The notes beneath the pieces are model-generated. The model saw only the letters and a program-made list of their open reading frames with translations. It ran no database searches and was not told where the DNA came from. The position numbers and the translations under genes are program-made. A stretch of DNA of 64,000 nucleotides from Branchiostoma lanceolatum (lineage: Eukaryota; Chordata; Leptocardii; Amphioxiformes; Branchiostomatidae). Each line of letters starts with the position of its first letter. Within the stretch, counting starts at the first letter, position 1. The DNA lies in assembly GCF_035083965.1 (NCBI RefSeq), contig NC_089731.1, positions 8,035,501 through 8,099,500 on the forward strand, given 5' to 3'. Of the stretch, positions 5,617 through 63,118 are shown one piece after another.

Positions 5617-7591
5617 TCACTGCATTGTGTAAGGCTTTACAGATCTCCTTTTCCAGGGTGTCCTTTGTTCGCTCATCTGGCCTTGATACCTTTTACAGAT
5701 ATAACGTTGTTCAGCATTGCACCTCCCGTGAATCCACTGTCCGTCGCCAGGAATTCGCGCATGCGTTAAGCTACGACGAACCTGTTGAAGATGTAAACAC
5801 AACAAAGATCATACAATCAGGTAATTATTATAATAATTACACCTACTTTTGGCAGTTGTATTTATTAAGATACTTCAGCTTAGATGACCGGGAATAAGGA
5901 CCATGGGTTCTCCTATAAAAACTGTCTTCTGGATGGTAATTGACTCTAAATATCCTCTGCAGGGGATCTATTCCCGCCTGGTTTCAGGACCAACGGTATG
6001 ATATTACAGCAGACGATGGGAAGTACTTTGCATACTAACTGACCCATCAAGTTTCGAAAACTCATTGTTTTTTCTCCACTAGTTTTCCACGAAAACATCA
6101 TTAGGTGAAGAAATGTTACTCAGATAGTAGCAGCAAACTCTCATATAATAGTCATATTTGTCTTTAATGAATAATCACTAAAGCCAGGACCATCCACATT
6201 TGTTCTCAAATAAGAGTTTAGGCAGTATAAGGGCCTTCATTTTCAAATTTGAACTGACTTTCTGCAAAGACCAGCCCCTGTAAAACTTGCAAAACATCGT
6301 CACCGGTACTCTGGACTAAAGCTATGAATGTGGTCCATTTTCTGCATTGTAGCTACAGCTTGGTTTCATTTGATGAAATGATCCTATTTACATACCATCA
6401 TCTTGATTTCCTGCCATCACATGCTTTCAACAAACGTAATGAATCGATAACGTTTGCTTTACTAACTTAAAGCTACTTTATCTTCTTCGTCACTTAAATC
6501 AAGCAACACTCACCATGCTGAGCATACTGATACAATTCCTTTCCCCTCTAGGTCGAAGGTTCTGTTTAGGTTCACCTGGAGCCCAGTTTTTGTAGACAAC
6601 TGATGACTTATCCTCCCACCACCGAGCCTTGCTATACATTGGACGGAGTCCAATCCAAACTTGTTCATCTTGAAAGAAAAATGTTCATTTGGCAACGAGT
6701 CACCACGAATGGCGTAATGATACCATGGCTACATATCTTCCGTAGTATTAACCAATTCAGAAACTTTGATAAAAACTAGTATAAATTTATATTCCTTACA
6801 ACCTTCGATAAACCAAATCTAATTAATCATACAGCCTCCTACATTTATACAATTACAAAGAAGCCAAAGGAAGCCGACAGCACATGAGTACTAGTATACT
6901 TTATATGTATATTACATGTTGTTAACATGTGACCTGTGCTTAACCCAGTGGGTCAAGAATGTACAATAAACGTCTTCATTCATCAACTAGTAGAAAAAAA
7001 CACAACTTGGTGAGAGACACATATTCCGTTGTCACTGGCCAATCATCAGCCACGTCTTGGGATTTAGAAATTAGTCACACATACTGGAAGGATAAAACAA
7101 GTTGGAGACCCCATACGAATCAAAAGGCCAAATTGAAAGTTTTTGGTGTAACTGAAAGCTCCGTCGATAGATAGTCATCGAAACTAAAATGAATGTGATC
7201 TTTAATGTCTTCACATGTGACGTCCTTTTGAAAGTCAGAGGAGGGAAGAAGGCGGGTGAGGAAGGAGCCAGAATTGTGATCAGAGCTAACGGTTCCAGTA
7301 CTTCCCATGACATGAAATCTGCGAAATTTTTAAATGTTAGGTGAGAAAGCAAATATGTCGTTCCTATCGGTTCCAAGAGTCCTAAATCTTATTGATTATA
7401 ACGAACCGTGTCTTACCCACCTTTAGAGATAAGATCTGCAATGAAATTGTTCTCATAAACGTCCCAGATAGACGCAAGAAGAGCACCGTGTTGTTTACAT
7501 CCTGAACTCGCCGTAGACCAACCGGCCTTGTCTGTCATTAGCTTGTAGCAGTGGTTGTTGTGTTTGCTCCACCCTCTCTGACATTGTGGGG
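5617..7591 (-). CDS. Copy A exons 23-25: C-type lectin domain 2 and C-terminus
   Basis: Exons 7421-7591, 6514-6668 and 5617-5781 encode a full C-type lectin fold. It opens with [16 protein letters not shown], continues [13 protein letters not shown] across a clean phase-1 junction, then [11 protein letters not shown] and [18 protein letters not shown], and ends with a basic tail and a TGA at 5617. The EPN motif is EPK and the usual WND is WIHG, so the calcium-dependent sugar site is probably lost. This suggests protein or non-calcium binding (inference). The last exon is the same length (165 nt) as the surviving last exon of copy B. Confidence 0.85.
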
Positions 7592-10500
7592 CTGTAGCCA
7601 GTGGAATACATGCGCTGATATAAATACATTATGCATTACGTTAACGCGACATCACCCTCAAACAAGTAAGTGGAAGCACCGAGTTGATTCAATTACACGG
7701 CATATAACCATTTGTAACACACACACACACACACACACACATAGAGGCACACACCAAATATGTACGATTCTTCCAGGGAAAAGGCCAACTTGCAAGCAAA
7801 AAGAAAACATCATAAAGAACTCAGCCCCCATATAGGCATGGTCTTAATTCCCAACAATAATCTATATCAGGAGTTCACAGAAGTAGAAAACACATCTCTT
7901 TCAGTCTGAAGGTTAAGTTTTTTCTCATTCACGATTCCGGCCATGGATTTCAAGACTTGCTTGTCTCCTCGACTTTATATCAAGACTAGATCATGGATGT
8001 GTATCATTTGGACAACCAGAAAATAATGGCAAATGTCAAGATCTTTAGATCTCTAAGACTAAGACTACTCTTGATTAAAAAACATGATTGGACATACTTA
8101 ACAAGACTGGAAGCGTAAACGATATTGGACACGCATTTACGTTGTTTTTACGCTAAGAAAATAAGTCAAGTCACAATCTTTGTCATCTATACCATTTATT
8201 GGGGTCTGACCTGTAATCTGGTAGACCTCATTCATGACACAGGTTGTGGGCGAAGGTCTATCGTACGTCTTGAAAGACACAAGACACTCGCCTCCATATG
8301 CATACCGTACAGTAAATGAGGTATAGCCTCCAGATAGTGCTGCCTGATAACACTTTTCGACAGGGTTTTGACCGCGGATATCCAAGGTACCATCTAGGCG
8401 TGGACCTGTTACCCTGGGCGTCGGAATGGAGCTGCCCCTAACGTTCAGCCAACAACCCAGGCTGATGTACCCACGGGTAGTGTCGTGCCCTATGTGAGGA
8501 AGGAGGTATTGAAGTAATCCCCGAGTTAAGAACTTCTACATATGTTATTTCGAAGACGATGTATCTAAATTTTACCAACGTATGTCATTTACACATTTTG
8601 CAAAATAAGTATGCGTCAGTATATTAATTGAAAGGACACCAAAATCAAATAGCAACATAGGGCAAATTTAAGAAATAGACGTTTATGATTTCAGTCGCAG
8701 GAAAAAGGCACCCTCCCATAAAAATAACTAATTCATCATCATCCTAGAAGAAGGTGAAGGGAATAAATCGTGTACAAAAGTTGATTGCTTACTACAGTTG
8801 ACAGAAGTCTCCCAATTTGAAGGGTGAGTAATTTTAACATTGATCTTTTCATTCGATATGTAATGTTATGTACTGTGTTATGAATGGTTTTCATCACTTG
8901 CATGTATCGAATGAATGAAATTCTATGACTCAATATAATGACCACATTTTTCTATTTTATGGATGTATCCTTGCCGCTTTGGCCGCTCCAAAATGATGCG
9001 CGCGTGCAGAACGAATGTCCAAAATGTTTAGATCTTCAAGGTGACAGCGAAGTTTAAGTTTGAACATATGGCAGAGCACGCAGTACATGGTTATAAGATG
9101 ATTGTGAGCGTAAACGGCTAAACGGTATCGGAAGCGCATTTACATTATATTTACACTGAAATAAATCAATTCACTTCATATGGCATCTACACCATTATTT
9201 GATTAACCGAAGTCTGACCTGTAATCCGGTAGACCTCATTGTCCATATGCCCGCCTTTTCCGTCCGATGCACAGCCTGTGGATGGTCCGTTCTTGTTGTA
9301 GGTGTTGTGCGCATCGACAGACCCAGCACAACACCCACTATGCCGTATAGCAAACACGATAAAGCCTCGAGAAAGTGCTACCTGGTAACACTTATAGATG
9401 GCGTTTTGACGGACACCGTAGCGGCCATCCAGGCGTGAATCTGTCCCCTCGAGTTTTGGAATGGTGCGGCCGAAAGGGTCCCTCCAGCAGCCCAGGCTGG
9501 TGTACAGGGCAGTGTCGTGCCCTATGTGAGGAAGGAGGTATTACTTAAATCCCCGAGTTAAGAACTTCTACACGTGTTCTTTCATGGGATAAATTGTCCT
9601 GCTTTCGTAGACGAGGTATCTAATTTCTACCAGTGTGAGTTATTTATACATTTTGCAGGATTAGTATGCGACAAACATCAGTAAGATAATTGAAAGGCCG
9701 TCAAAATCAAACAGAAACATGAGTCAAATAAGAAATAGATGTTTGCGATTTCTGTCGTAGGCTCAATGTGAAAAAGGCAACATCCCAAATAACATTCCAA
9801 TTAATCATGTTTTAAGTAAAAACCCAGGATGCTGGAAACTACTAATCTCTCATTCATAAATTTCCGTTTGTCGTTGATGCACTTTTTACTAACTATTTCA
9901 TACTAAACATTTTAAATTTATATGCAGCATAATTTCTGAGTAGATTGTTTAGAAATGACATAAATGTTGTTTCCAGTATCCCAGACAAAGCTCATTTTCG
10001 TGCTGTCATGAAAGGCATGACTTGACATTACCTTTTTGTTATTCAATGTACAAAGACAAGATACATGTATTGCACAGTAGAGTCGTGCTCAAGCTGTTTA
10101 TATTAGCGACAGCACATGACAGATGTGCAATCAATAACAGATACGTATTTTACATATTTTATATAGACAGGAACGGGATCATCTTATGAATATACACAAT
10201 CGAGGTAATGTACAGTAAGTAAAAAATGATGATTCATGTTACCTTTGTAACATATCTCTCCTGGACCTGTAAAGCAGATGCAACAACATGAGGGAGGAAA
10301 ACATTTCAAACGTAAATTCTAAATAGACACATTTGAATATACTAAAAGTGAATATTATTACAGATTTTATCAATGTAACACGGATGAGTTTTTATTCCAA
10401 AATATGTGTTAATAGAATAATGAAACCATTACCTATTTGGCAGACAAAGTACGTTTCCCAGTCACAGCGAGTATCATCCCACTGGTGTTCTCTAGATGAC

Positions 10501-13500
10501 CATAGATAAGCGCAGAAGTTCGGGGGATTTGAATAGTTGGGTTCTCCTAGAGCCCATTTAGTGAAGGTGCAGTCACTCAGTGGAGTTCCGTCTGACCAGG
10601 TCCACCTTCGTCCAGCCGTCCTTGGTCCAAACCTTGGCCCGACCTAAAGATGGCATAAAGGTGGCAATCTATATATCAGAGGGCCTACCAGCCTACGCGT
10701 TGAACAGGGACGGAGGCAGGTATCGACTTCCGAACACCTCTTACCCACTCCTGACGTCACACATCCCGAAGACCAATGTGTGTCAGAAAAGTGGGTCAAG
10801 TTTCTGATGAAGACCGATGGACATATATACAAATGCCTACAATACTTACGGCCATGTCGTTGAGTCCAAACCAGTAATCTTTTCCTCCATCAGTGTCCTG
10901 AATCAAACGAAGAAGAAAGTTGTACACAGCCTCTGTCTTAATCACAGCAAGACGTCCTCCGTCTGCCGCACAGGTCTGCTTGGCCGCGTTGTACGTCTTC
11001 TCCTCGAGAACTACCTTGTACTTGGTGCCACCTTTCCATTGGTAGGCATTCGGAGCTGCCGCATAGAAACACAATACCAACCACATATTTCAGAAAACAG
11101 GGCGTATTACGTAAGTTGTTGAGATCCGGTCATCCAATCATCGACAACAAAAACACAAACCACAGCCACAAAATATGGCCTACTACTAGCCTCCTTCGCA
11201 CACGTCTTGGAGCGCCGGCGTTTATTTATTAGAGAAAGCGCTGATTCGCGATTTCTAACTGTCCAAGGTTTTCTAATTCCTGCAGAGATCGATTTACCGA
11301 CACCAAGAAGTCTTCTTCTTGGTGGTGGCAAATCGATCTCCCCAGGCATGAGAGAACCTTGCCCATGTTGAAAATCGCGTGACAGCGCTCCCCCAATGAA
11401 TAAACGCCGTCGGTCCTAGAAGTCTGCGAATGAGTCTAGCCTACTCCTATATGACATGTTTGGGTGATTCTATTCTACTTTCAACCACGAAAGTGATTTT
11501 TCAATAAAAGAAATGAATCGCTTCGTTATTGGACTAAAATGGAAGAAAAATAATCTTCTTTGATATCTATATCTCTACCACCACCCCTCCTTCGCTGAGC
11601 GACTTGGGGCATTCTTCGGGGAGACTCAAGTCGGCTCGAAGAGAAAAGTTCTTCAATAGCTTAAATTTCTGTTTACGCAGTCCTGACTCGACTCCGTCCA
11701 GGTAGAAGAAAGGAAAGAAAAATTTAAACCAGTATTACGATTAACATTCAATCCAATGATGACACCTAACTGCTTAGATAGGTTCTGTGCTGTAATGAAG
11801 AAAGAAACAAAAATATACGATTTTCACAGAAAAGAGCAACTTTCAAACGAAATCAAAGGGAATTCACCCTGACAGTTCAGTCCAGTCCATCCAGGGGGGC
11901 AGGCACACTTGTATCCGCCATCTTTGTTCACACAGCGTCCATGTTGACAAGGATTAGGAACTCCGTCACACTCATTGATATCTACGTAATGACAGAAGGA
12001 TTGGGAACTGATTTGCAACAATTAATTGCAGCACATAACAAGAGTTCGGAGACCTCATATCTCCATGAAATATTTTGATTATGCAAATGACCTCCACATT
12101 TGCATAATCTATGCTCGGTCAAGTACACCTTTAACTGACTTACACAGATCACAACGTTTTATTTGCATAATTTGTATCTTTTAAAGTTCTATCTGCCATA
12201 AACTACATATGTTGCATGTATTTGAGTCCTACAAAGGAAAACACTGCAAATATAGATTATCAAGTATTATATTAATTATGCAAAGTAAGTCCCAATTGTC
12301 ATGATTCAGTTATGCACTTCGTTATTTACATCTGTGTCTCAAAAACATACACACAAAACATCATGGAAATGCGTCGTTCCTTTGTTCAGTTATTCTCCTT
12401 GGACGATTTTGACAAAAAAACGCCCCTGTAGTTCATGAGCAAGCCTACACCACTTTTTCTTCACATAACAAGCTTCCTGCCACAGAAAATCAAGACCATT
12501 GCAGGTCCAGGTCAAAAGATAGAAAAACGGAAGTTCTGCTGCAGTACCAAGGTCACCAACTAGGAGGCCCAAAATCAACCTTGACCTTTGTGTTCCCAAC
12601 ACCTACCACATATCAAACATCAAACGTAATCCATCCAGAGGTTCTTGAGTTATGCTGACTACGAATCTGGAAACACAGACAAATAGACACACACAGACAG
12701 ACACACATACAAACCGGAAACCATATCCCCATTTTTCATGGAGATAACAAGTATTAGTGTGTCTGTACCAAGTGCAGTTTGAATTCAATTGTTCGATATA
12801 TATTGCCGGGAACTTTTGCAGACGAATGGTTTACAAGAACGCACGGAATTAGAATGCTTATGTCTTTGAGCGTAACGGATAACATGAGAGAGTTTGACGG
12901 GAACGGCCATACGAAATTAAAAGATAACCTTGCTGACAGTTCGTTCCAGTCCATCCAGAGGAGCAGGTACATTTGTATCCAGGATATTTGTTCACACAGC
13001 TTCCATGTTGACAAGGGTTAGGGTGTCCGCTACACTCATTGATATCTATGTAATGACAGAGGGATGCGTGGCACTGGTTTGCAACACAACTGCAGTACAT
13101 AAAGTATTAATATGTGTCCGTCTTTGATGCAGTTTAAATTCAAACGAACATGATTTATGGTTTAAAGGGAATGCTTTTTTTTACAGAGATGGACATGTAA
13201 TTGTGTGAAAACATTTGAAGGAAGATATCTTGAAAAATGACAAAAAGAAACTCACCACGAAGACAGACTGGTCCAGTCCAACCGGGCCTGCAGGTACATT
13301 TGTATCCGCCATCTTTGTTCACACAACGTCCATGTTGACATGGTTTTCTGGCACACCCATCTTTGCCTGTGAGATAACGGAAAAAGCTTTCAACCTGATG
13401 ATTATGATACCAGGAAAAGTTTGGATACGACGCAGGGTTTTTGTAACAAATAGCAGATTGTTTTACGACAGAAGGAACTTACGTTGCTCGCATTTCTGTC

Positions 13501-16500
13501 CAGTCCATCCGTTGTAGCAGGTACATTTGTATCCGCCATCTTTGTTCACACAGGTTCCATGTTGACATGGTTTTCTGATACACTCATCTATGTCTGTGTT
13601 ATGGGGAGAACCAAAGTGTTACTTATACACAGGAATAACAATGAACGTAAAGTTGATCACTAGAGACTAGAGAGAGAGAGCTTTCCACCTAATTGTGATG
13701 CAACAAAGAGATGGGATAGGATAAGATACAGTTTTTTTTTAACAAGTAGCAATTTATTCTAAGAAAGAAGGATCTACATGTAGGAACTCACTTTGCTGAC
13801 AGTTCCGTCCAGTCCATCCAGGTGAGCAGGTACATTTATATCCGCCATCTTTGTTCACACAGCGTCCATGTTCACAGGGCTTCTTAGCACACTCATTGAT
13901 GTCTGTGTGATGGGGGAAACCAGAAAGTTACTTATACCAAGAAGGTTTTATATACATCCTTGCTTATACACAGAATTAACATTGAACTTATAGTTGGTGA
14001 CTAGAGAAAGATCTATCCACCTGATGATGATAAAACAGATTTATTGGATAAGATACAGGATTTTGTTTAACAAATAGCAATTTGTTTAAAAAAAGAAGGA
14101 TCTAGGAACGCACCTTGCTCACAGTTCTGTCCAGTCCATCCAGGAGAACAGATACAGTTGTATCCGTCATCTTTGTTCACACAGCGTCCATGTTCACAGG
14201 GTTTCTTAGCACACTCATTGATGTCTGTGTGATGGGGGAAACCAGAAAGTTACTTATACCAAGAAGGTTTTATATACATCCTTGCTTATACACAGAATTA
14301 ACATTGAACTTATAGTTGGTGACTAGAGAAAGATCTTTCCACCTGATGATGATAAAACAGATTTATTGGATAAGATACAGGATTTTGTTTAACAAATAGC
14401 AATTTGTTTTAAAAAAAGAAGGATCTAGGAACGCACCTTGCTGACAGTCCTGTCCAGTCCATCCGGGTGTGCAGGTACATTTGTATCCGCCATCTTTGTT
14501 CACACAGCGTCCATGTTTACAAGGCTTAGAGCGTCCGTTACACTCATTGACATCTACGTAATGACAGAAGGATGGGGAAGTGGTTTGCAACATAACTGCA
14601 GTACATAATAAGTATTAGTTGGTCCGTACCATGTGCAGTTGAATTAGATTGGACAGTATATACATGTACTGCTGGAAACTTTGGAAGATGGTCTAGAAGA
14701 ACGCACAAAATTGGAATGCTTTTTCGATAGAGAGTAGCATAAAATACTTTGACGGTCCGAACGGCCTTACGAAATTTAAAGATCACCTTGCTGACAGTTC
14801 GTTCCAGTCCATCCAGGGGAGCAGGTACATTTGTATCCGCCATCTTTGTTCACACAGCGTCCATGTTGACAGGGGTTAGAGTGTGCGCTACACTCATTGA
14901 TATCTACGTAATGACAGAAGGATGTGTGGCACTGGTTTTCAACACAACTGCAGTACATAACAAGTATTAATGTGTACCTGATGCAGTTTGAATTTAAGCG
15001 GGCAAGATACATGGTTTAAAAGAAAGCGAAAAAACAGAATGCGTATTTTGCAGAGATGGACATATGATTGAGTGAAAACATTTGAAGGAAGATATCTTGA
15101 ATAATGACAAAAAGAAACTCACCACGTTGACAGTTCTGTCCAGTCCATCCAAGCAAGCAGGTACATTTGTATCCGCCATCTTGGTTCACACAGCTTCCAT
15201 GTTGACATGGTTTCTTGATGCACTCATTGATGTCTGTGTGATGGGGAGAACCAAAGTGTTATACACAGGAATAACAATGAACGTAAAGTTGATCACTAGA
15301 GAGAGAGAGAGAGCTTTCCACCTAATTGTGATGCAACGAAGAGATGGGATAAGATAAGATACAGTTTTTTTTATCAAGTAGCAATTTATTTTAAGAAAGA
15401 AGGATCTAGGAACTCACCTTGCTGACAGTTCCGTCCAGTCCATCCAGGCGAGCAGGAACATTTGTATCCGCCATCTTTGTTCACACAGCGTCCATGTTCA
15501 CAGGGCTTCTTAGCACACTCATTGATGTCTGTGTGATGGGGGAAACCAGAAAGTTACTTATACCAAGAAGGTTTTATATACAACCTTGCTTATACACAGA
15601 AATAACATTGAACTTATAGTTGGTGACTAGAGAAAGATCTTTCCACCTGATGATGATAAAACAGATGTATTGGATAAGATACAGGATTTTTTTTAAACAA
15701 ATAGCAATTTGTTTTAAGAAAGAAGGATCTAGAATCTTACCTTGCTCACAGTTCTGTCCAGTCCATCCGAGAGAACAAATACAGTTATGTGCGCCATTTT
15801 TGTTCACACAGCGTCCATGTTGACATGCCAGTTTGCTGGTGCATTCATCTATGTCTGCGTGATAACAAAATGAATTCAAAGAGCTTCCAAATGTCAGATA
15901 CCACATAAAAGCTTTGATAACAAACATAGTTTTATTTCTTTTGTAACAAAGAGAAAAAGACAAAGCTATTTGTTTTCCCACAGAAGGACCTCACCTTGCT
16001 GACAGTTCTGTCCAGTCCATCCGGGAAAGCAGGTGCACCTGTATCCGCCATCTTTGTTCACACAGCGTCCATGTTGACAGCGTTTTCGTGCACATTCGTC
16101 CACATCTGTGCGATAAAGAGTTAATATATAATTTACCTGTTTTAGTTAGATTTTAACGCAACGATAAACACCACACCATTCAAAGAGGTATTTTGATCAT
16201 AAACGAAGGACAAAAACATGACATTGAATTCATGTCTTAGTTGCAACGGGAAAAATTTACCTTGCTGGCAGTTCTGTCCAGTCCATCCAGGTGAGCAGGT
16301 ACATTTGTATCCGCCATCTTGGTTCACGCAGCGTCCATGTTGACATTGTTTTCTGGTGCACTCATCTATGTCTATGTGATAACGGAAGAAAATACTTACT
16401 TCAAAGAGCTTCCAATCCGAAGACACAACACAAAATCTTTGATAATATACTTTTTTTTTGTAACAAAGAGAAATAGACAAAGCTATTTGTTCCCCCATAG

Positions 16501-19500
16501 ATGGACCTCACCTTGCTGGCAGTTCTGTCCAGTCCATCCGGGCAAGCAGGTACATTTGTATCCGCCATCTTTGTTCTTACAGTGTCCATGTTGACATGGT
16601 TTGGTCTTGCACACGTTTACTTCTAAGTGATGGAAAATAGACTTTAATTGCAGCTATTTGAGACACAGCAACTTGATAATTCATACGGTATCTAACATAC
16701 ATCAAGGACGTTTTCAGGATAAGAAAAAGAAAGAGCCCCATCGCGTTGTAATCAAGCTGAATCACTCTCCATATTGTCATTGTGGCCATTCAACGTCAGG
16801 GCTTTTGGTAGCTGCATGTCTATTGTCAAAGCACCCAGTTACACGGCAGGGACAACTTACTTACCAGTGGTTGACAGAGGCGCGAGTGTTGTAAGTAAGA
16901 TCTCAGTGTTTCCACCTTCAGTACTTGTCACTGTAGACTGCCACTCCAACAGAGAGGTTGAGTAGACGACGGTCGAGCTGGTCTCCTTGTAGAAACGCCC
17001 CCACCACGAAGTGCTTGAATTCTGTTGGCTAGCCCAGCTCATTACACCATATTCATTCTCCTGCAATAAGGTGCATCTTAAAAACATACACGAAGAAAAC
17101 ACACGGCTAAAATGTTCTTACCTTTTATACTTCCTGCATCAGGGCCGCGGTGATGAAGTCTGACTGCATATCTAAATAATATTTAATGTAGATAATAAAG
17201 CAAAACAAATTCTAGATCGATTCTCCAATGATCTACCAATCTGATGAAGATTGTCTTGGGTATGAAAAACATAATGCCTGAGACAGATCGTGAATGTCAT
17301 TCATGTACTATTGTTATTGCTAGCCAACTAGCCCCCCTTTGAAGCCAGGAACTGAATTGTGAGGCTTTTTACGATTTTTAAATACGCTCGCGCTGTGATC
17401 AAACTGCACCTTATCACTGCCATTGGGACCATTCAACTTCAGGGCTTTTGGTAGCTATTGTCCATGTCCAGGCACATTTCTTACCTGGGGCTGATTCGCA
17501 GGGCGAATCAAGGACATAGCCTGTTAGGGATTTGAACCCAGAACCTCTGGATCCTTAGGCTGCCACTTATCTATTCACAAGGTCCACCATTGCCAATTGT
17601 ACTTTGTATCATAAAAAACACATTGTAAAGATCACAGCTTACCTTCTCTCCAGGTACAAGACTAGTTGACAGGCTTGCAGCGGTGACAACCGACACTAGT
17701 ATCAGGAGGCCGAAAACCAGCACAAGCCAGAAAACTTTCCTGGATTTCATCTGGCTCCACATCTCCATAGCATGATCTGAGATGCAATATAGTACAAAAC
17801 ATGACGATATCATTAGTTTTTCGTTGAAAGTAAATCTGTACTCAAGTAATTGATGTTGAAAAGATGTTGCTATCGCTGCATGCTCGCTATGAAAGTTTAC
17901 TGTTTCATAAAGCAGGTCGATTAAAACAAGATTATCAACATACAATGGGTAAGCAAGGATATACGAAGAACATTGGAATCTAGTTTTACTTCCACCGTAA
18001 TGAATCTACCCAGGTGGTTTGACTTAACCTACGATTGCGTAACGTGTACTCATTATAGCTGATGGCTGATTGTTCGCTATGCTCATGATAGTGGAGTGCA
18101 TTTTTTGGTCACTAACAGATAACACAAGTTGTCCAAAGTATGAAAATCTTATTTCAAAAAGTTATTATAGCATTTCCTTATCAATTATGTAAGATTCTTC
18201 CTTTGAGACTGTAACTGAAAATTGAAGTAGCGAAAAAACCATAAGCCATGATATAGATTCTTGTAGATTGTATGAATTTGTGTGTGCAAATCCAACGTAA
18301 ATAGATACAAACTGGGCTGAAACAGCAATACATCTTTAACCTTAGAATGATTTCGTTTAATAAGCCTGAAACTTCTTGTGGTGGTGCAAGTATAGTGATT
18401 GAGCCTGGACTTACCTCTAGCTTTCGCGGCAAAGCTACGTTCATCTTGCTCTTCATCTCCGGTAGTTTCCTCTGGTTTGTAGCACTGCTCGGAGCACGAG
18501 TCTTCCTTCTGCTCTGGCCACACAACCACGTGGTCTCCCATGTCAAGATGGCAAGGAGGGGTGTCAGCGGGCGCAGATTGTTGCAAGCCTGAACCTGGAG
18601 CATTTTCATCGCCATGCTCTAGATCCACGTCCTCGCACATCCTCTCCTCTTGTTTGTTCCTACTGCCGTCATCTTGTGCGTTTTCTTCTTCTGCACCCTC
18701 TTCTTCTTCCTTTCGGCGTGCTCGTTCCTTCTCTTTCTGCTCCATGGCAGGATTGCGAGGAGGGAGCTCAGGGGGCGCTTTACGTATCACCCCAGAGCCC
18801 AATATTACTTTTACCCCGCCCATCTCTACAATCACGTCCTCGTGCTTATCGCCTTCTTCTTCCTTCTTTCGGCCTGTTCGGTCCATTCGTTCCGCTTCTT
18901 TCTCCCCCAGAGGAGAGTTGCGAGGAGGGAGGTCAGGGGCCACTGCACGTTTTAAACCGGAGCCCAGCATCACGTTTACTCCGCCGAACTCTACATCCAC
19001 GTCCTCGTACTTATGGCCTTCTTCTTCCTTCTTTCGGCCTGTTCGGTTTGCTGGTTCACTTTCTTCTTTTTTCATGTCAGGATTGCGAGGAGGGAGATCA
19101 GGGGTCGTTGCACGTTTCAAACCGGAGCCCAGCATCACATTTACTCCACCCAACTCTAAATCTATGTCCTCGTATCTATGGCCTTCTTCTTCTTTCTCTC
19201 GGCCTGCTCGTTCCACTTCTTTTTCCTCCATGACAGGATGGCGAAGAGGGAGATCAGGTAGTGCTGCATGTTTGAGCCCGGAGCCCAACATCACGTTTAC
19301 TCCGCCGCACTCTAAATCCACGTCCTCGTACTTATGGTCTTCTTCTTCTTCTTTCTTTCTTCGTGCTCGTTCCTTTTCCTTTTCCTCCATGTCAGGGTGG
19401 CGAGGGGGGAGATCAGGTGGTGCTGCATGTTTGAGCCCGGAGCCCAGAATCACATTTTCTACGCCGTACTCTAGATCCACATCTTCATATTTATGCTCCA

Positions 19501-19549
19501 TTTGTCCGTACACGGCAAGCGGAGACGGGTCTGTGTTGGCTGATGCCAT
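5617..19549 (-). CDS. Copy A: type II receptor with YEDV/PxxPxR tail, 14 EGF, 2 C-type lectin domains
   Basis: Twenty-five coding exons join in frame (4557 nt, about 1518 residues plus stop). Order, with approximate residues: cytoplasmic repeat tail 1-378; TM 393-413 (preceded by the basic MKSRK, so N-terminus inside); Ser/Thr stalk 424-488; 14 EGF domains 489-1014; C-type lectin domain 1 1015-1153; 8-residue linker exon; two GCW cysteine-rich modules 1162-1355; C-type lectin domain 2 to the end. All EGF, linker and GCW exons are phase 1-1. The likely role is a cell-surface recognition receptor signalling through its tail (inference from domains). The start at 19549 (MASANTD, G at -3 and +4) is preferred over an in-frame Met at 19579. 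A degraded tandem paralogue lies upstream at 24306-36140. No full-length family with this order is known to me. Confidence 0.8.
7718..7742. repeat. (CA)n microsatellite
   Basis: A run of CA dinucleotides lies in the intron just upstream of the lectin domain 2 exons of copy A. Confidence 0.8.
8211..8489 (-). CDS. Copy A exon 22: GCW cysteine-rich module 2
   Basis: Phase 1-1 exon of 93 codons between 'cacatag' and a GTCAGA donor. It begins [19 protein letters not shown] and ends with NEVYQIT. Relative to module 1 it keeps the GHDT start, GCW, RLDG, KCYQ(A/V)A and NEVY signatures. The middle CCAGS stretch is changed to GECLVS and the block is eight residues shorter. It is a divergent repeat of the same fold. 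Confidence 0.75.
9219..9521 (-). CDS. Copy A exon 21: GCW cysteine-rich module 1
   Basis: Phase 1-1 exon encoding 101 residues between a 'cacatag' acceptor and a GTCAGA donor. Signatures in order: [53 protein letters not shown] and NEVYRIT. I recognise this as a module that recurs in lancelet and echinoderm secreted or surface proteins, but I cannot give it a secure domain name. Both flanking intron boundaries are nearly identical to those of module 2, which indicates exon duplication. Confidence 0.75.
10243..10266 (-). CDS. Copy A exon 20: 24-nt phase 1-1 micro-exon
   Basis: Between a TTACAG acceptor and a GTAACA donor lie 24 nt reading (G)PGEICYK in phase 1-1, linking lectin domain 1 to the GCW modules. 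A same-length relic is present in copy B at 25012-25035, but there the donor has become GC. Conservation of length in both copies supports a real exon, though it can be skipped without changing frame. Confidence 0.5.
10433..11055 (-). CDS. Copy A exons 18-19: C-type lectin domain 1
   Basis: Exons 10850-11055 and 10433-10643 join in phase 0. The domain has [29 protein letters not shown], then [29 protein letters not shown] and [17 protein letters not shown]. The EPN motif and the WDD motif (equivalent of WND) are both present, as in mannose-type calcium-dependent lectin domains. This domain is therefore likely to bind sugar, unlike lectin domain 2 of the same protein. Confidence 0.85.
11285..11340. 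repeat. Palindromic hairpin in intron
   Basis: 'gagatcgattt' at 11285 and 'aaatcgatctc' ending at 11340 are inverted, with inner arms 'caccaagaag' and 'cttcttggtgg'. It lies in the 812-nt intron between EGF 14 and lectin domain 1. The equivalent intron of copy B has a different C-rich sequence at 26927-26970. Confidence 0.5.
11868..16622 (-). CDS. Copy A exons 4-17: fourteen EGF-like domains
   Basis: Each domain is one phase 1-1 exon of 111-117 nt: 16512-16622, 16261-16371, 15995-16105, 15741-15854, 15418-15528, 15123-15233, 14787-14903, 14437-14553, 14114-14224, 13792-13902, 13483-13593, 13256-13366, 12929-13045 and 11868-11981. The consensus is D(I/V)(D/N)[28 protein letters not shown], with all six cysteines. 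The DxDEC start plus the Asn/Asp and aromatic residue after Cys3 fit a calcium-binding EGF. The twelfth domain opens GKDGC and the first opens EVNVC, so these two probably lack calcium binding. Introns between neighbours are themselves similar (for example 13921-14100 and 14250-14430), showing spread by unequal duplication of exon-plus-intron units. Confidence 0.9.
12046..12780. repeat. Dispersed repeat copy in intron
   Basis: The stretch from 'ctccatgaaatattttg' through 'ttattctccttgga' to 'catccagaggttcttgagttatgctg' and a CA-rich tail recurs at 23160-23610. Partial copies lie at 36890-37320 and near 19905, 22195-22370, 32490, 34280 and 43440-43630. The recurring trailing part 'cagacagacacac' is typical of an old interspersed element. 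It fills most of the 947-nt intron between EGF 13 and EGF 14. Confidence 0.5.
16865..17060 (-). CDS. Copy A exon 3: Ser/Thr-rich membrane-proximal stalk
   Basis: This 196-nt exon enters in phase 0 and leaves in phase 1. It encodes [20 protein letters not shown] and then a stretch rich in Ser and Thr ending [11 protein letters not shown], with an NSS glycosylation site. It links the TM helix to the first EGF domain and is likely O-glycosylated (inference). The copy B equivalent is 33142-33346, three codons longer. Confidence 0.8.
17122..17163 (-). pseudogene. Possible decayed 42-nt exon
   Basis: The block reading [10 protein letters not shown] lies between an AG and a GTAAGA donor and is conserved in copy B at 33410-33453 ([13 protein letters not shown]). 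In copy A the frame hits TAA before the donor. In copy B the length from the CAG is 44 nt, which breaks phase. The surrounding exons join in frame without it, so it is best read as a lost or alternative exon. Confidence 0.3.
17643..17776 (-). CDS. Copy A exon 2: transmembrane helix
   Basis: This 134-nt exon enters in phase 1 and leaves in phase 0. It encodes MKSRK, then a 20-residue hydrophobic run ([19 protein letters not shown]), then [11 protein letters not shown]. Basic residues before the helix and glycosylation-type sequence after it predict a type II topology. The copy B equivalent (33710-33843) has the same length and splice sites. Confidence 0.85.
18415..19549 (-). CDS. Copy A exon 1: cytoplasmic tail of ~53-residue signalling-motif repeats
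   Basis: One 1135-nt exon encodes 378 residues. Five clear repeats and a sixth decayed one have the form [27 protein letters not shown], then a highly charged Glu/Lys/Arg linker. Repeats start at Tyr21, Tyr74, Tyr126 and Tyr181; the fifth starts at His236 (HEDV) and the sixth at CEDV. Thus four YED(V/I) motifs resemble the acidic-acidic-hydrophobic SH2 ligand type. Five copies of PxxPxR fit class II SH3 ligands (PDLPPR, PDLPLR, PELPPR). The exon ends AKARG at a GTAAGT donor. The linker is likely disordered or helical. The recurring NVMLGSGL core has no function I know. Confidence 0.8.
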
Positions 19550-26970: not shown

Positions 26971-28779
26971 AGTGATTTCGTCCCACTCCCCAAGACAATT
27001 TTGCTACCGACTCCCTTCCTCGCTGAGGGACCTGGGTCAAGTCGACTCGGAGTTAAAGGTACTTGAGTAGCCTAAATTTCTGCTTACACAGTCCTGACTC
27101 GACTCCAAGTAGAATCCGAAAACGCGTGTGTTTAATCAGGGTTAGGTAAAGTAAGGCAGTTCAGTAACTTATTTTACATAGAGGGACATGTAATTGTGTA
27201 AAAACATTTGAAGGAAGATACCTTGAATAATGACAAAAATAAACTCACGCTCACAGTTCCGTCCAGTCCACCCAAGCGAGCAGGTACATTTGAATCCGCC
27301 GTACGCGTCTTGGTTCACACAGCGTCCATGTTGACATGGCTTTCTGGCACACCCATATTTGCCTGTGAGACAACGGAAAAAGCTTTCAACCCGATGATGA
27401 TGATGATATCACGAAAGGCTTGAATAAGATACAGGATTTTTGTAACAAATAGCAATTTATTTTCCGACGGAAAGAACTCACGTTGCTCGCAGTTCTGTCC
27501 AGCCCATCCTTGCCAACAGGTACATTTGTATCCGCCATTTTTGTTCTTACAGCGTCCATGTTGGCATGGTTTCCTGTTACATTCATTTATATCTGTGAAT
27601 TGGGGGAAAACCAGAATGTTGCTTGATATGCAAAATATAACACAGGAATAACGTTAACATTGAACTCCAAGTTGGTCAAGCTAAGAGCTCAACACTTAAC
27701 GACAGGCACTAGATTTCTAGCGAGGTCAACGCCCACAGAGCCTGTCGTTTCAAATGCAAAGTAGCCAATTATCGCCGATCTACTGGCACGCGAGGGGCAA
27801 GAATGAATACTTCACACCATTTGTCCGTCAATAACTGGTTCATTGTTAATAACGGCAATGGATTATAAAGGAACTTTTCGTGGGACTTCTCGTAGTTTGC
27901 AGCACATGTTTTAGCAGCGGATTACTTTTAAACCTGGTTATGTAGAGCAGAACTACGCACTGAAAATGTTCTAAACATCGACACGACCCCTGACTCAGTT
28001 CTAAGCTGTAGCACTTCGTATTATACCTTTTTTTTAAATTTCATGTACGGAATGATGTTCGGCGATAGACAATGTGACACATATAAAACTTTACATTTAT
28101 TGTCATCAGAAAATACATGGCAGTAATGTCGCTATCGTGTTAGGCTGAACATAGTCTGTACATGTATAGATTCAACAAAGGTAAGTATACAACTTGAAAA
28201 ACCAAACTAGATGCATAGTAATACTTAACGATGCTGTACAAAACAAGGAGTACAAAAGCGGGTTTTATCCACTTGTTTTACAGACTTTCAGTGAGCTCGA
28301 AAAATGATTCACCTTGCCGACAGTTCTTTCCAGTCCATCCAGGCGAGCAGGTACATTTGTATCCGCCAATTTGGTTCACACAGCGTCCATGTCGGCAGGG
28401 TTTATTGATACACTCATTAAAGTCTGTGTGAATTGGAAAACCAGAATGTTACTTAACACAGGAGTAACATTTAACTTAATGTTGGTGACTAGAGAGAGAG
28501 AGCTTTCCACCTAATTGATGCAAGGAATAGATTGGATAAGATACAGGATTTTGTAACAAATAGCAATTCGTTTTAAGAAAGAGGGATCTTAGGAACGTGT
28601 CCTGCTGACAGTTCTGTCCAGTCCATCCGGGTAAACAGGTACATTTGTGGTCATTTGTATCCGCCATATTTTTTCACACAGCGTCTATGTTGACAATGTT
28701 TCCTGGCACGCTCATCTATGTCTGTGTGATGGGGAAAATCAGAATGTTACTGATACACAGGAAGAAAATTGAACTTTAA

Positions 28780-30470
28780 TTAGAAACAAAGGATATAAAC
28801 ATGTCATTTGTTTTATATCTAGAAAATGATTCACCTCGCTGACAGTTTTGTCCAGTCCATCCAGGTGGGCAGGTACATTTGTATCCGCCATCTTGGTTCA
28901 TACAGCTTCCAAGTTGACAGGGTATTCTGGTGCACTCATCTATGTCTGTGTGATGGGGAAAATCAGGATGTTACTGATACGCAGGAATAACATTAAAGTT
29001 AAAGAGGAAGCCTGTACAATAAAATCGCCCAATAAATTCGGCTAACGTAAACAACCAGACTTCACTCTGCTACTGGCAGTCGTGGTGTTCACATCGGTGG
29101 AGGCCTCAGTGGCTATGGCAGTGAAAACTGACTTACTTTTCAAGACACTTTTGAGATGTAGAAACAACAAATAAGAAATTGTAGTATGATTGTTTGTAAA
29201 GAAGTTACCTTCACACAACACTGGCTTGCCATGCTATGCCTGGTAATGTGAAACATAGCCTGATTTCAATCAGCCTCTTGTAACGGCTCGCCGCCCTGTA
29301 ACCGTCTCGCCGTCCTAGGAGCTTGATGGCTAGGGCCTCTAAGTTGAGGGAATCCTCCTTTCTAAATATGGATTTTATACACGCCTAAAGCAGAATCCTT
29401 CTCCTAAACACCTTTGCACATTAGTGAGCACACATGGACAGAGCAAACTCACCTTGGCCACAGTTCTGTCCAGTCCTGTCCGGCCTTTCGATATGTTCAT
29501 CTACTTGGAACTCCTCGAGTCATTTCTAAGTGCGTTTTGAATCTATATTCTGGCAGAACTAAGAGTGCTACGTTGATACTTTCTTTACAGTGAAGTAAGA
29601 ACAACTCATACACCTTCACCATGGCAATAATTCTTAATTGCCACACTTATTTATCTTGTCTCATTGATCATGCAAATAGAAATTTAATGAAGGAAAACAT
29701 GTACTCAATCAAAGAGATTTCACGTACCCAATCAAAGAGATGTCAACCCAATTATGTCCCGTAAGACCTTAGATGAGATACAGGGTTTTCATTAACAAAG
29801 ACGAATAAACAAATTTAAAGTAATTTGTTTATTTCGCTTTGAATTTCACAGAAGGAATTCACCTTGCTGACAGTTCCGTCCAGTCCATCCGGGCGAGCAG
29901 GTGCCATTGTACCCGCTATCTTGGTTCACATAGCGCCCATGTTGGCATGGTTTCCTGGCACACTCATCTATGTCTGTGTGATGGGGAAAACCAGAATGTT
30001 ACTTATACACAGGAGGAGCTTTGAACTTAAAGTTGGTGGCTAGAGTAAGAGCTTTCCACCTGATGATGATACAACGAATCGATTGAATAAGATACTGGAT
30101 TTCGTAACAAAAAGCACTTTGTTTTAAGAAAGAAGGATCTAGGAATGCACCTTGCTGACAGTTCCGTCCAGTCCACCCAGGCGAGCAGGTGCAATTGTAT
30201 CCGCCATCTTGGTTCACACAGTCTCCATGTTGACATGGCTTCCGGACGCACTCATCTATGTCTGTGTGATGGGGAAAATCAGAATGTCAGGGCATTCATG
30301 TTAAATCAACAAAATGATTCACATCGCTGACAGTTTTGTCCAGTTCATCCATTTGTATCCGCCATCTTGGTTCACACAGTTTCCACGTTGACAGGGTTTT
30401 CTGATACACGCATTGATGTCTGTGTGATGGGGAAAATCAGAATGTTACTTATACACAGGAAGAACATTAA
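28780..30470. repeat. Internal 1.68-kb tandem repeat, left unit
   Basis: It matches 30470-32150 almost base for base. Corresponding EGF exons are offset by 1674-1698 nt (28835/30533, 29863/31537, 30151/31825), and the same intron sequence and EGF stub lie between. The high similarity implies a recent event within copy B. Confidence 0.8.
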
Positions 30471-32150
30471 ACATTAATTAGAAACAAAGGATATAAACGT
30501 GTCATTTGTTTTATATCTAGAAAATGATTCACCTCGCTGACAGTGCCGTCCAGTCCATCCAGGTGGGCAGGTACATTTGTATCCGCCATCTTGGTTCACA
30601 CAGCGTCCATGTTGACAGGGTTTTCTGGTGCACTCATCTATGTCTGTGTGATGGGGGAAATCAGGATGTAACTGATACGCAGGAATAACATTAAAGTTAA
30701 AGAGGAAGCCTGTACAATAAAATCGCCCAATAAATTCGGCTAACGTAAACAACAGACTTCACTCTGCTACTGGCAGTCGTGGTGTTCACATCGGTGGAGG
30801 CCTCAGTGGCTATGGCAGTGAAAACTGACTTACTTTTCAAGACACTTTTAAGATGTAGAAACAACAAATAAGAAATTGTAATATGGTTGTTTGAAAGAAG
30901 TTACCTTCACACAACACCGGCTTGCCATGCTATGCCTGGTAATGTGAAACATAGCCTGATTTCAATCAAGCCTCCAGTAACGGCTCGCCGCCCTGTAACC
31001 GTCTCGCCGCCCTAGGAGCTTGATGGCTAGGGCCTCTAAGTTGAGGGAATCCTCCTTTCTAAATATGGATTTTATACACGCCTAAAGCAGAACACTTCTC
31101 CTAAACACCTTTGCACATTAGTGAGCACACATGGACAGAGCAAACTCACCTTGGCCACAGTTCTGTCCAGTCCTGTCCGGCCTTTCGATATGTTCATCTA
31201 CTTGGAACTCCTCGAGTCATTTCTAAGTGCGTTTTGAACAAATATTCTGGCAGAACTAAGAGTGCTACGTTGATACTTTCCTTACAGTGAAGTAAGAACA
31301 ACTCATACACCTTCACCATGGCAATAATTTTCAACTGTTACACTTATTTATCTTGTCTCATTGATCATGCAAATAGGAATTTAATGAAGGAAAACATGTA
31401 CTCAATCAAAGACATTTCAACCCAATTATGTCCCGTAAGACCTTAGATGAGATACAGGGTTTTCATAAACAAAGACGACTAAACAAATTTAAAGTAATTT
31501 GTTTATTTCGCTTTGAATTTCGCAGAAGGAATTCACCTTGCTGACAGTTCCGGCCAGTCCATCCGGGCGAGCAGGTGCAATTGTATCCGACATCTTGGTT
31601 CACACAGCGTCCATGTTGGCATGGTTTCCTGGCACACTCATCTATGTCTATGTGATGGGGAAAACCAGAATGTTACTTATACACAGGAGGAGCTTTGAAC
31701 TTAAAGTTGGTGGCTAGAGTAAGAGCTTTCCACCTGATGATGATACAACGAATCGATTGAATAAGATGCTCGATTTTGTAACAAAAAGCACTTTGTTTTA
31801 AGAAAGAAGGATCTAGGAATGCACCTTGCTGACAGTTCCGTCCAGTCCACCCAGGCGAGCAGGTGCAATTGTGTCCGCCATCTTGGTTCACACAGTCTCC
31901 ATGTTGACATGGCTTCCTGGCACACTCGTCTATGTCTGTGTGATGGGGAAAATCAGAATGTCAGGGCATTTATTTTAAATCAACAAATTGATTCACATCG
32001 CTGACAGTTTTGTCCAGTCCATCCGGGCGAGCAGGCCTAGGTACATTTGTATTCGCCATCTTGGTTCACACAATTTCCATGTTGACAGGGTTTTCTGATA
32101 CACGCATTGATGTCTGTGTGATGGGAAAAAAATGTGACACAAGAATAACA
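30470..32150. repeat. Internal 1.68-kb tandem repeat, right unit
   Basis: Right-hand partner of the tandem pair. It contains EGF exons 30533-30643, 31537-31647 and 31825-31935 and the damaged exon 31997-32113. Confidence 0.8.
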
Positions 32151-33141
32151 TTGATCTTAAGTAATGTTGGTGATCATGACTACATCCACTGACTTATCAT
32201 CATCATCTATCATTTGTCCGGTCCATCCTTGCCTACAGGTGCATCTGAATCCGCCATCTGTGTTCACACAGCTTCCATGTTGACAAGGCTTAGGCCTTTA
32301 CTCATCGATGTCTACATAATGACAGGAAGATGGGACACTGGTTTGCGACATAACTTAAGCACGTAGTGTGTTCGTGCTGTGTGGTTGAGATTTACTCCAA
32401 GGTAATTGGGCGAAGAATGTTTTCGAACAACACTTAAAAGATAGAATGCATATTTTAAAGAGAGAGACGTGAAGAGTTCCGAGACCTCATATGTACCTCC
32501 ATGAAATATTTAGAGCAATTTTTATTCATCTTGTCTCATTGATTATGCAAATGAAAATGTAATGAAGGAAAAACGTACTCAGTACAATCAAAGAGATTTC
32601 AGCCCAATGATATCACGTAAGAGCTTAGATGAGATACAGGGTTTTCCTTAACAAAGAGGAATAGACAAAGCAATGTGTTTTCCCACAGAAGGAATTAACC
32701 TTGCTGACAGTTCCGCCCAGTCCATCCGGGCAAGCAGGTGCACCCGTATCCACCATTGTTGTTCACACAGTATCCATGTTGACAGGGTTTTCGTGCACAT
32801 TCGTCTACATCTGTGCGATAAAGAATGAATGTAATTATCTGTTTTAGTTCACACAGTGGCCATGTTGACATGGTTTGGTCTTGCACACGTTTAGTTCTAC
32901 GTGATAGAAAGAAACTTTAAATTGCATCTATTTGAGACACAGCAACATTATAATTCATACGGTATCTAACATACATCAAGGACGTTTTCATGATAAGAAA
33001 AAGAAAGAGCCCCATCGCGTTGTAATCAAGCTGATTCACTCTCCATTGTCATTGTGGCCATTCAACGTCAGGGCTTTTGGTTGCTGCATGTCTATTGTCA
33101 AAGCACTCAGTTTCACGGTTGGGACAACTTTCATTTCTTAC

Positions 33142-33709: not shown

Positions 33710-33843
33710 CTTCTCTCCAGGTACAAGACGAGTTGACAGGCTTGCAGCGGTGACAACCGACACTAGTATCAGCAGGCCCAAACCCAGCACATGCCAGAAA
33801 ACTTTACTGGATTTCATCTGGTTCCACATCTCCATAGCACGAT
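33710..33843 (-). CDS. Copy B transmembrane exon
   Basis: It encodes MKSSK followed by [19 protein letters not shown] and SLSTRLVPGEK. Length, phases and splice sites match copy A. A His now lies inside the membrane helix. Confidence 0.75.
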
Positions 33844-34855: not shown

Positions 34856-36140
34856 CTCTAGCTTTCGCGGCAAAGCTACGTTCATCTTGCTCTTCATCTC
34901 CGGTAGTTTCCTCTGGTTTGTAGCACTGCTCGGAGCACGAGTCTTCCTTCTGCTCTGGCCACACAACCACGTGGTCTCCCATGTCAAGATGGCAAAGAGG
35001 GGTGTCAGCGGGCGCAGATTGTTGCAAGCCTGAATCCGGAGCATTGTCATCGCCATGCTCTAGATCCACGTCTTCGCACATCCTCTCCTCTTGTTTGTTC
35101 CTACTGCCGTCATCTTGTGCGTTCTCTTTTTCTTCATCCTCTTCTTCTTTCTTTCGGCGTGCTCGTTCCTTCTCTTTCTGCTCCATGGCAGGATTGCGAG
35201 GAGGGAGCTCAGGGGGCGCTTTACGTATCACCCCAGAGCCCAATATGACTTTAACCCCGCCCATCTCTAGAAGGACGTCCTCGTGCTTAAAGCATTCTTC
35301 TTCTTCCCTTCGGCCCGTTTGGCCTGCTCGTTCCTCTTCTTTTTCTTTTTCCTCCAGGGCAGGGTGGCGAGGAGGGAGCTCAGGGGCCGCTGCACGTTCC
35401 AAACCAGGACCCAACATCACGTTTATCCCACCCAACTCCAGATCGACATCCAAATACGTGTGGCCTTCTTCCACTTTCTTTTGGCCTCTTCCGCCTGCTG
35501 GTTCCATTTCTTTCTCCTCCGGGGCAGGGTGGCGAGGAGGGAGCTCAGGGGCCGCTGCACGTTCCAAACCAGGACCCAACATCACGTTAATCCCACCCAA
35601 CTCCAGATCGACGTCCTCGTACTTACGGCCTTCTTCTACCTCTTTCTTTATTCGTGCTCGTTCATTGTCCTTTTCCTCCATGTCAGGGTGGCGAGGAGGG
35701 AGATTAGGTGGCGCCGCATGTTTGAGCCCGGAGCCCAGCATCACGTTTACTCCGCCGAACTCTACATCCACGTCCTCGTACTTATGGCCCTCTTCTTTCT
35801 CTATTTGTGCTTGTTCCTTTTCCTCCATGTCAGGATGCCGAGGAGGGAGATCAGGTGGTGCTGCATGTTTGAGCCCGGAGCCCAACATCACGTTTACTCC
35901 GCCCAACTCTACATCTACGTCCTCGTACTTATGGACTTCTTCTTCTTCTTTCTCTATTTGTGCTTGTTCCTTTTCCTCCATGTCAGGATGCCGAGGGGGG
36001 AGATCAAGTGGTGCTGCATGTTTGAGCCCGGAGCCCAACATCACGTTTACTCCGCCGAACTCTACATCCACGTCTTCATACTTATGCTCTACCTGTCCGC
36101 ACACGGCATCCGGAGACAGGTCTGTGTTGTTTGATGTCAT
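34856..36140 (-). CDS. Copy B exon 1: cytoplasmic repeat tail, one repeat longer than copy A
   Basis: The 1285-nt exon (428 codons plus one base) starts MTSNNTD with A at -3. It has seven repeats: five keep a tyrosine (YEDV or YLDV), the sixth is HEDV and the seventh CEDV. Five keep PxxPxR (PDLPPR, PNLPPR, PELPPR three times); the first has LDLPPR and so lacks the leading Pro. The last third, from [12 protein letters not shown] to AKAR, is nearly identical to copy A, while the first repeats differ more. This fits repeat turnover by unequal exchange. The frame is open upstream to a further Met at 36242. Confidence 0.75.
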
Positions 36141-63030: not shown

Positions 63031-63118
63031 TCCGAGTTTAACGATGACGTCACGTACATGTACGAGAACTGATCCGAGTTCGATGATGACGTCACGTGCG
63101 AAAACTGATCCGAGTTCG
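63005..63118 (+). repeat. Triplicated NBL1 C-terminal codons with CRE-like TGACGTCA sites
   Basis: Three tandem copies of a ~36-42-nt unit hold TGACGTCA at 63009, 63045 and 63087, each followed by 'cgtac/cgtgc', GA(G/A)AACTGA and 'tccgagtt'. The first copy encodes DDVTYEN and the real stop; the next two lie in the 3' untranslated region. Confidence 0.75.

Follow-up and report, generated by a model that had tools for sequence, protein, structure and literature searches.

A repeat array pairing tyrosine and proline motifs as the candidate multivalent docking tail of an apparent type II lectin/EGF receptor in a lancelet

Repeated cassettes in the first coding exon of gene A

A 64,000-nucleotide stretch of the Branchiostoma lanceolatum genome (contig NC_089731.1, positions 8,035,501 to 8,099,500), called here the window, carries on its minus strand an exon with repeats in which a YED[VI] motif stands 24 residues ahead of a PxxPxR motif. 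With moderate confidence, we read this exon, the first of a gene designated A, as the N-terminal cytoplasmic tail of a type II C-type lectin/EGF receptor, and the tail as a multivalent docking scaffold of repeated cassettes. In each cassette, PxLPPR would be a class II ligand for SH3 domains, and YED[V/I] would on phosphorylation become an acidic SH2 ligand (pYED[V/I]), the two lying at a constant distance of 24 residues.

The frame starts with an ATG at 19549 and runs to a canonical donor (AAAGCTAGAG/GTAAGT) ending at 18415, which gives 1135 nt and phase 1. A 165-bp unit in 5.0 copies was detected at 18699-19495 by Tandem Repeats Finder, and at the protein level the tail comprises six units, five clear ones of about 53 residues and a degenerate sixth. 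The exon and its units are as follows.

18415..19549, minus strand: gene A first coding exon, predicted N-terminal cytoplasmic tail, six repeat units (378 codons plus 1 nt)
19349..19507, minus strand: unit A1, YEDV, 24 residues to PDLPPR
19193..19348, minus strand: unit A2, YEDV, 24 residues to PDLPLR
19028..19192, minus strand: unit A3, YEDI, 24 residues to PDLPPR
18863..19027, minus strand: unit A4, YEDV, 24 residues to PDLPPR
18656..18862, minus strand: unit A5, HEDV (without the tyrosine), 24 residues to PELPPR
18524..18655, minus strand: unit A6, degenerate, CEDV, 23 residues to ADTPPC

An earlier reading made from the letters alone (the sequence-only reading) had placed the array at the correct coordinates, and the strand is minus. 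It had described five clear repeats, four of them with YED[VI] about 24 residues ahead of PxxPxR; this description is accurate, and the spacing is exactly 24 (23 in A6), but the degenerate sixth unit (CEDV...DTPPC) was absent from it. PxxPxR is present in five of the six units (A1 to A5), and the successive tyrosines of the array are 53, 52, and 55 residues apart.

Both motifs were far more frequent than in shuffled versions of the tail, which held on average 0.16 PxxPxR and 0.13 acidic tyrosine motifs compared with the 5 and 4 observed; none of 20,000 shuffles reached either count, for this tail or for that of the sister gene described below. Since the units are duplicates of one another, the fairer test is the shuffling of a single consensus unit (200,000 shuffles), which produced PxxPxR in 3.4%, Y[ED][ED][VIL] in 1.0%, and both in 0.036% of cases. 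All these figures refer to motifs picked after the sequence had been seen.

Gene A encodes an apparent type II transmembrane receptor

Downstream of the tail exon, the following features of gene A were found.

17643..17776, minus strand: transmembrane exon, joined in frame, with positive charge on the N-terminal side
16865..17060, minus strand: Ser/Thr-rich stalk exon, predicted to be extracellular
11868..16371, minus strand: 12 EGF exons from a pattern search, all phase 1-1 and in frame with the tail (Pfam EGF_CA on one)
10395..11089, minus strand: two open reading frames (ORFs), each matching one half of a C-type lectin domain (Pfam Lectin_C, 1.4e-5 and 1.1e-9)
6502..7628, minus strand: lower-scoring fragments, under the Pfam cut-off, of what may be a second C-type lectin domain

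The tail donor joins the transmembrane exon (acceptor CTCAG/ATC), which is followed in phase 0 by the stalk and then in phase 1 by the EGF exons, and the joined frame of tail, transmembrane exon, stalk, and 12 EGF exons contains 940 codons and not a single stop. A further EGF-like ORF near 13.2-13.4 kb, missed by the pattern, lies outside this joined frame. The mean Kyte-Doolittle hydropathy was 2.8 over the 19-residue transmembrane stretch, while the maximum over residues 1-375 of the tail was 1.23. According to the positive-inside rule, positive charge ahead of a transmembrane stretch predicts that the N terminus is inside. As KSRK precedes the stretch, an N-inside topology is expected for the gene A product; this charge and the lack of any other long hydrophobic segment over the tail suggest that it is cytosolic.

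The two Lectin_C matches (26.2 and 39.4 bits; cut-off, 22.6) lie downstream of the EGF exons, and the lectin exons probably belong to the same gene as the tail, transmembrane, and EGF exons. The product would thus be an apparent type II transmembrane C-type lectin/EGF receptor. The assignment of the array to a receptor tail by the sequence-only reading is supported by the in-frame transmembrane join in gene A and by the same donor phase and same-phase transmembrane exon in the sister gene; because the tail is N-terminal, the receptors to compare it with are type II lectin receptors. The ectodomain region of gene A also holds two related-looking Cys-containing stretches on the minus strand, GCWRD... 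at 9190-9540 and GCWLN...VTGPRLDG at 8140-8535, for which Pfam gave nothing up to an E value of 1.

A sister gene with the same tail and transmembrane plan

A second gene, designated B, lies on the same strand and shares the tail and transmembrane plan of gene A; together with the invariant spacing described below, it strengthens the case for the array.

34856..36140, minus strand: gene B tail exon, seven units (428 codons plus 1 nt), same donor and phase as in gene A
33710..33843, minus strand: gene B transmembrane exon
27483..32811, minus strand: nine gene B EGF exons from a pattern search (Pfam EGF on one)

Four of the seven units have YEDV, and the others have YLDV (B5), HEDV (B6), and CEDV (B7). 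PxxPxR is present in B2 to B6, while B1 reads PLDLPPR, with the first Pro of the motif absent. Lectin_C had no match in the three ORFs tried at 26.8-24.3 kb. A Pfam match of the gene B tail to Ago_N_2 (27 bits at a cut-off of 27, E value of 5.6e-6) was rejected: no stretch passes alone, the tail of gene A scores 16.8 bits, and the match was put down to the summing of many weak repeats.

Long ORFs run antisense to both arrays, at 18483-19583 and 34924-36270 on the plus strand (366 and 448 aa), and are a trap for gene finders. We rejected them as coding: the ratio of nonsynonymous to synonymous differences per site (pN/pS), with every pairing among the 13 units taken together, was 0.55 in the minus-strand reading frame, the lowest of the six frames (0.72-1.20 in the others), and the plus-strand frames are long all the same.

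The spacing is fixed and the block between the motifs is conserved

Among the 13 units of the two tails, 9 carry the tyrosine, 10 carry PxxPxR, and 8 (A1 to A4 and B2 to B5) carry both. The 11 complete units align without gaps over 44 columns, and in every one of them the distance from the tyrosine position (Y) to the first Pro is 24, with B1 counted by its LPPR register. The distance from that Pro to the next Y is 25-33 (45 before the last unit), and length variation in the complete units is confined to this linker; over both tails, adjacent tyrosines are 49-55 residues apart.

The Leu, Pro, and Arg of LPxR are invariant in all 11 aligned units. The middle of the cassette, E-x-G-G-[VI]-x-V-x-L-G-x-G, is nearly invariant as well, with several of its Gly, Val, and Leu residues equal to LPxR in this respect. 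The tyrosine itself is not the best conserved position, since it is found in 9 of the 13 units compared with 13 of 13 for Asp at Y+2, Glu at Y+6, and Gly at Y+8. The two-motif view of the sequence-only reading was incomplete, in that constraint extends to the block between the motifs. The middle may be conserved as a third contact or as a folded stretch, or because the repeat is still too young in that regard.

The unit pattern gave 47 and 58 matches in viral and prokaryote contigs, respectively, none of which was confirmed, as expected for an animal gene.

Constraint extends over the whole block

For the nine tyrosine-bearing units, the ratio of nonsynonymous to synonymous substitution rates (dN/dS) over columns 1-47 was 0.30. 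By part, it rose from 0.14 for the acidic residues plus tyrosine through 0.25 for the middle and 0.39 for the SH3 core to 0.68 for the linker. Adding the two HEDV units raised the overall value to 0.35 and left the order of the parts unchanged (0.23, 0.33, 0.48, and 0.55). The proportion of nonsynonymous differences per site (pN) among the nine units was 0.091 in the six-residue tyrosine core, 0.097 in the SH3 core, 0.123 in the middle, and 0.338 in the linker, and dN was 0.135 between the motifs and 0.450 in the linker. In a column permutation test with the motif columns chosen by the analyst, these columns were less variable than all the others (P = 0.00125) and less variable within the block (P = 0.028), the latter difference being weak because the middle is conserved too. 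The block is thus coding and constrained, and the tyrosine and PxLPxR are not singled out as the sole targets of selection.

The constraint on the middle could also point to a cassette that works as a small docking element, either structured or extended, around D-x-E-x-G-G-V-x-V-x-L-G-x-G and LPxR, with the tyrosine incidental. The low dN/dS of the middle (0.25), its fixed length, and the presence of Asp Y+2, Glu Y+6, and Gly Y+8 in every unit all fit such an element. Still, the tyrosine is retained in all of A1 to A4 and B1 to B5, and none of the 11 complete units, searched singly, matched a Pfam family at E values of up to 1 or a PDB sequence better than at an E value of 0.15 (PDB matches at 0.15 and 2.7 were rejected as homologues). 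We consider this explanation improbable.

Less probable readings: an endocytic or a hemITAM-like tail

The acidic tyrosine motif and the class II-type PxxPxR, claimed by the sequence-only reading to occur together, do so in A1 to A4. Motifs for Grb2 (YxN), Crk (YxxP), and phosphoinositide 3-kinase (YxxM) were absent from the units of both tails; one YxxM does occur in tail A, at residue 14, but it precedes unit A1.

Alternatively, unphosphorylated YED[VI] could serve as a YxxPhi sorting signal recognized by AP-2, and PxLPPR could recruit endocytic proteins with SH3 domains, such as those of the CIN85/CD2AP or the endophilin type, so that the tail might serve the high-avidity uptake of lectin-bound particles. 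All nine tyrosine-bearing units, as well as Tyr14 of tail A, fit the YxxPhi pattern Y-x-x-[LIMVF], which is a loose one, and PxxxPR, the CIN85-type pattern, is found in A1, A3, A4, A5, and B2 to B6. A lectin/EGF ectodomain would suit uptake. The second SH3 domain of CD2AP prefers class II ligands (PMC10453029; here and below, papers are cited from excerpts). Against an endocytic tail, HEDV units are kept without the tyrosine, and neither tail has a [DE]xxxL[LI] dileucine signal. Nor does YxxPhi need conserved acidic residues at +1 and +2, which the cassettes have. Uptake as the function of the tail therefore seems unlikely to us.

Less likely again is a tandem of motifs akin to the hemITAM, a half of the immunoreceptor tyrosine-based activation motif (ITAM), in which Syk-type tandem SH2 kinases would, as for CLEC-2 and Dectin-1, bridge YED[VI] motifs of the same tail or of different tails, and PxLPPR would only bring the priming kinase. 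Its attraction is that an apparent type II lectin has tyrosines in its N-terminal tail, with an acidic triplet no more than three residues before the tyrosine in A2, A3, A4, and B2; the definition of the hemITAM and its bridging by Syk are given in PMC3819593. The triplet is not at that place in A1, B1, and B3 to B5, DGYxxL is found nowhere in either tail (0 of the 9 tyrosine-bearing units), position +3 is V or I and not L, and the gaps of 49-55 residues between tyrosines are far from ITAM spacing. The pattern Yxx[LI]-x6-12-Yxx[LI] had no match in either tail even with V allowed, in agreement with the exclusion of a classic ITAM by the sequence-only reading, and the inhibitory ([ILVS]xYxx[LIV], ITIM) and switch (TxYxx[VI], ITSM) counterparts of the ITAM had no matches in the two tails.

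Recent exchange between the genes and points against a docking tail

The two genes are 94-97% identical over 18351-18800, which takes in the 3' third of the exon (matching the 3' end of 36140-34856), with no synonymous or nonsynonymous change in the 36 codons after the array, whereas intron 1 shows 76% identity in an alignment of 622 bases, with 71-80% per 150 bases in its remainder. The region is likely a gene conversion tract or the trace of an exchange that was very recent. A small unit tree paired A5 with B6 and A6 with B7 (support of 1.0), and A6 and B7 are the most similar units in DNA (96% identity). Each pair therefore counts as one observation, not two, and the tyrosine losses in A5/B6 and in A6/B7 may each have been a single event. 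Such identities could be taken to mean a young recombining coding repeat whose motif likeness was inherited from one ancestral unit and serves no dual function, which we hold very improbable given the dN/dS of 0.30 among the tyrosine-bearing units, a constraint that is frame specific, the restriction of length variation to the linker in complete units, and motif columns less variable than the others.

Several observations weigh against a tail of dual SH3/SH2 cassettes. The tyrosine is absent from 4 of the 13 units (A5, A6, B6, and B7). A mild form of what the sequence-only reading had named as evidence against itself, loss of the motif positions with the rest conserved, is seen in A5 and B6, which lack the tyrosine and keep the rest of the block, though these two units are not independent. 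B1 is without the first Pro of PxxPxR, A2 has LPLR, and B5 has YLDV. The conserved middle is not needed by a two-motif model, in which drift between plain motifs is expected. The SH3 core combines its low pN with a dS that is low as well (0.264; dN/dS of 0.39, or 0.48 with the HEDV units), so that homogenization, and not selection, may account for part of its sameness. Between-gene dN/dS values were 0.36 for A1-B1, 0.87 for A2-B2, 0.58 for A5-B6, and 0.38 for A6-B7, all from few sites, and 0.42-0.56 for the four other pairs computed, with few changes each. The transmembrane exons (17643-17776 and 33710-33843, minus strand) differ by one synonymous and seven nonsynonymous changes (dN/dS of 2.28), and the first 14 codons of the tails differ by none and seven, respectively; these few sites suggest no constraint between the genes there, with relaxed or positive selection. 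Finally, the EGF exon of gene B at 29864-29974 (minus strand) reads GRYVNQDSGYNGTC, with two of the usual Cys residues replaced, and gene B, including its ectodomain, may be decaying.

Proposed mode of docking

If the tail is a scaffold of dual cassettes, as we favor, an SH3-bearing tyrosine kinase or an SH2/SH3 adaptor would dock on PxLPPR before stimulation. Clustering of the receptor would then lead to phosphorylation of the tyrosines, which stand in a mostly Glu-rich setting, after which the SH2 domain of the docked molecule would engage the same cassette, or adaptors would bridge neighboring tails. With four to five tyrosines per chain, the response could be switch-like and dependent on clustering. 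The functional interpretation of the sequence-only reading is reasonable, but its assignment of the tyrosine motif to Src-type SH2 domains is too narrow, in that the similar YDDV of ADAP binds many SH2 proteins, according to excerpts of the literature.

The sequence-only reading had also stated that no receptor with this array was described. None was found in the titles and abstract starts of the open-licence PMC literature, among the matches listed; subscription papers lie outside that scope, and several of the queries were aimed at precedents. Within the same scope, the literature on amphioxus lectins, SH2 domains, and ITAM/ITIM signaling gave no such receptor among the matches listed, and there were no papers on YEDV with SH2 and phosphotyrosine.

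Other features of the window

Away from genes A and B, the window contains a mitochondrial carrier exon at 1650-1943 (minus strand; Pfam Mito_carr, 3.2e-12), exons of a Rhodopsin-family G protein-coupled receptor at 43877-45306 (plus strand; Pfam 7tm_1), and a single open frame of collagen triple-helix repeats at 50120-51520 (plus strand; 466 aa; Pfam Collagen, 8.4e-70). A DAN-domain gene lies at 61832-63030 (plus strand), with Pfam DAN at 8e-13 on one ORF and at 17.3 bits, below the cut-off, on the next. Its frame ends in DDDVTYEN, and a 36- to 42-bp repeat encoding that ending runs past the stop (63003-63118). An ORF at 52103-52603 (minus strand), for which Pfam had no match, contains a CPFC...EDESHFIMNCSRY stretch, which we take to resemble the tail ends of retroelements; a shorter, similar EDESHFI piece is found at 20523-20642.

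Comparison with known systems

The closest layouts are those of FAK and p130CAS, in which one PxxP and one phosphotyrosine motif stand near each other for one SH3-SH2 protein. In FAK, the PxxP at 368-375 and pY397 are used jointly by the SH3 and SH2 domains of Src (PMC7072507), and prolines 371 and 374 contact the MYO1E SH3 domain as a class I ligand (PMC10453029). The distance from the contacting Pro374 to Tyr397 is thus 23 residues, compared with 24 in the cassette. CAS has YDYVHL for the Src SH2 domain and RPLPSPP for the Src SH3 domain (PMC5556061). By a FAK/CAS-like definition, with an SH3-type and an SH2-type motif about 20-30 residues apart, the spacing of 24 applies to all 11 complete units, 8 of which have the tyrosine and a strict PxxPxR. 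The order differs, as FAK has a class I PxxP before the tyrosine, while the cassette has the tyrosine first and then a class II PxxPxR. The direction in which a ligand binds an SH3 domain depends on where its basic residue lies (PMC10453029), and since a class II ligand runs along the domain opposite to a class I ligand, the linker would in both cases emerge at the non-Arg end of the groove; the two layouts would then be mirror images. Moreover, FAK and CAS have a single cytosolic copy, whereas the cassettes are repeated in a receptor tail and have a conserved middle.

Nephrin likewise has several acidic Y-x-x-V motifs in one receptor tail, and its three YDxV motifs engage Nck, with clustering that depends on valency (PMC12203975, PMC4238058). 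Its partner proline motifs sit on N-WASP (PMC4238058), however, while each cassette has its own SH3-type motif and Glu at +1; YDxV itself has no match in either tail, position +1 being Glu, or Leu in B5. The PRS (proline-rich sequence)-ITAM of CD3epsilon also places an SH3 and an SH2 ligand, both for Nck, in a receptor tail (PMC7278359), but in one copy that overlaps an ITAM. In excerpts of the literature, ADAP has two acidic Y-acid-acid-V (YDDV) sites with adaptor partners but is an adaptor and not a receptor repeat, and the hemITAM lectins CLEC-2, Dectin-1, DNGR-1, and NKp80 combine an N-terminal cytosolic tyrosine motif in an acidic setting with a lectin ectodomain but have one DGYxxL-type motif, as opposed to a long array with PxxPxR and a run of EGF domains.

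We would place the tail among the multivalent phosphotyrosine/proline scaffolds, as a variant form. More tentatively, it could represent an undescribed architecture, a lectin-receptor tail that is a polymer of complete SH2-plus-SH3 cassettes. Each of these would mirror the FAK-type Src site, with a further conserved interface, the third, lying between its motifs, and many kinases or adaptors would thereby be loaded and activated per clustered receptor without an ITAM or adaptor chains. Should the proposed binding hold, receptor triggering would have been solved in an invertebrate chordate otherwise than in the ITAM, hemITAM, and LAT systems, with valency and dual-domain docking written into one repeat. 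The tails would then offer a countable natural system (four to five tyrosines and five SH3-type sites per tail, at a fixed spacing of 24) for relating spacing and valency to signaling thresholds, and would illustrate a way for type II lectins to signal with no partner chain.

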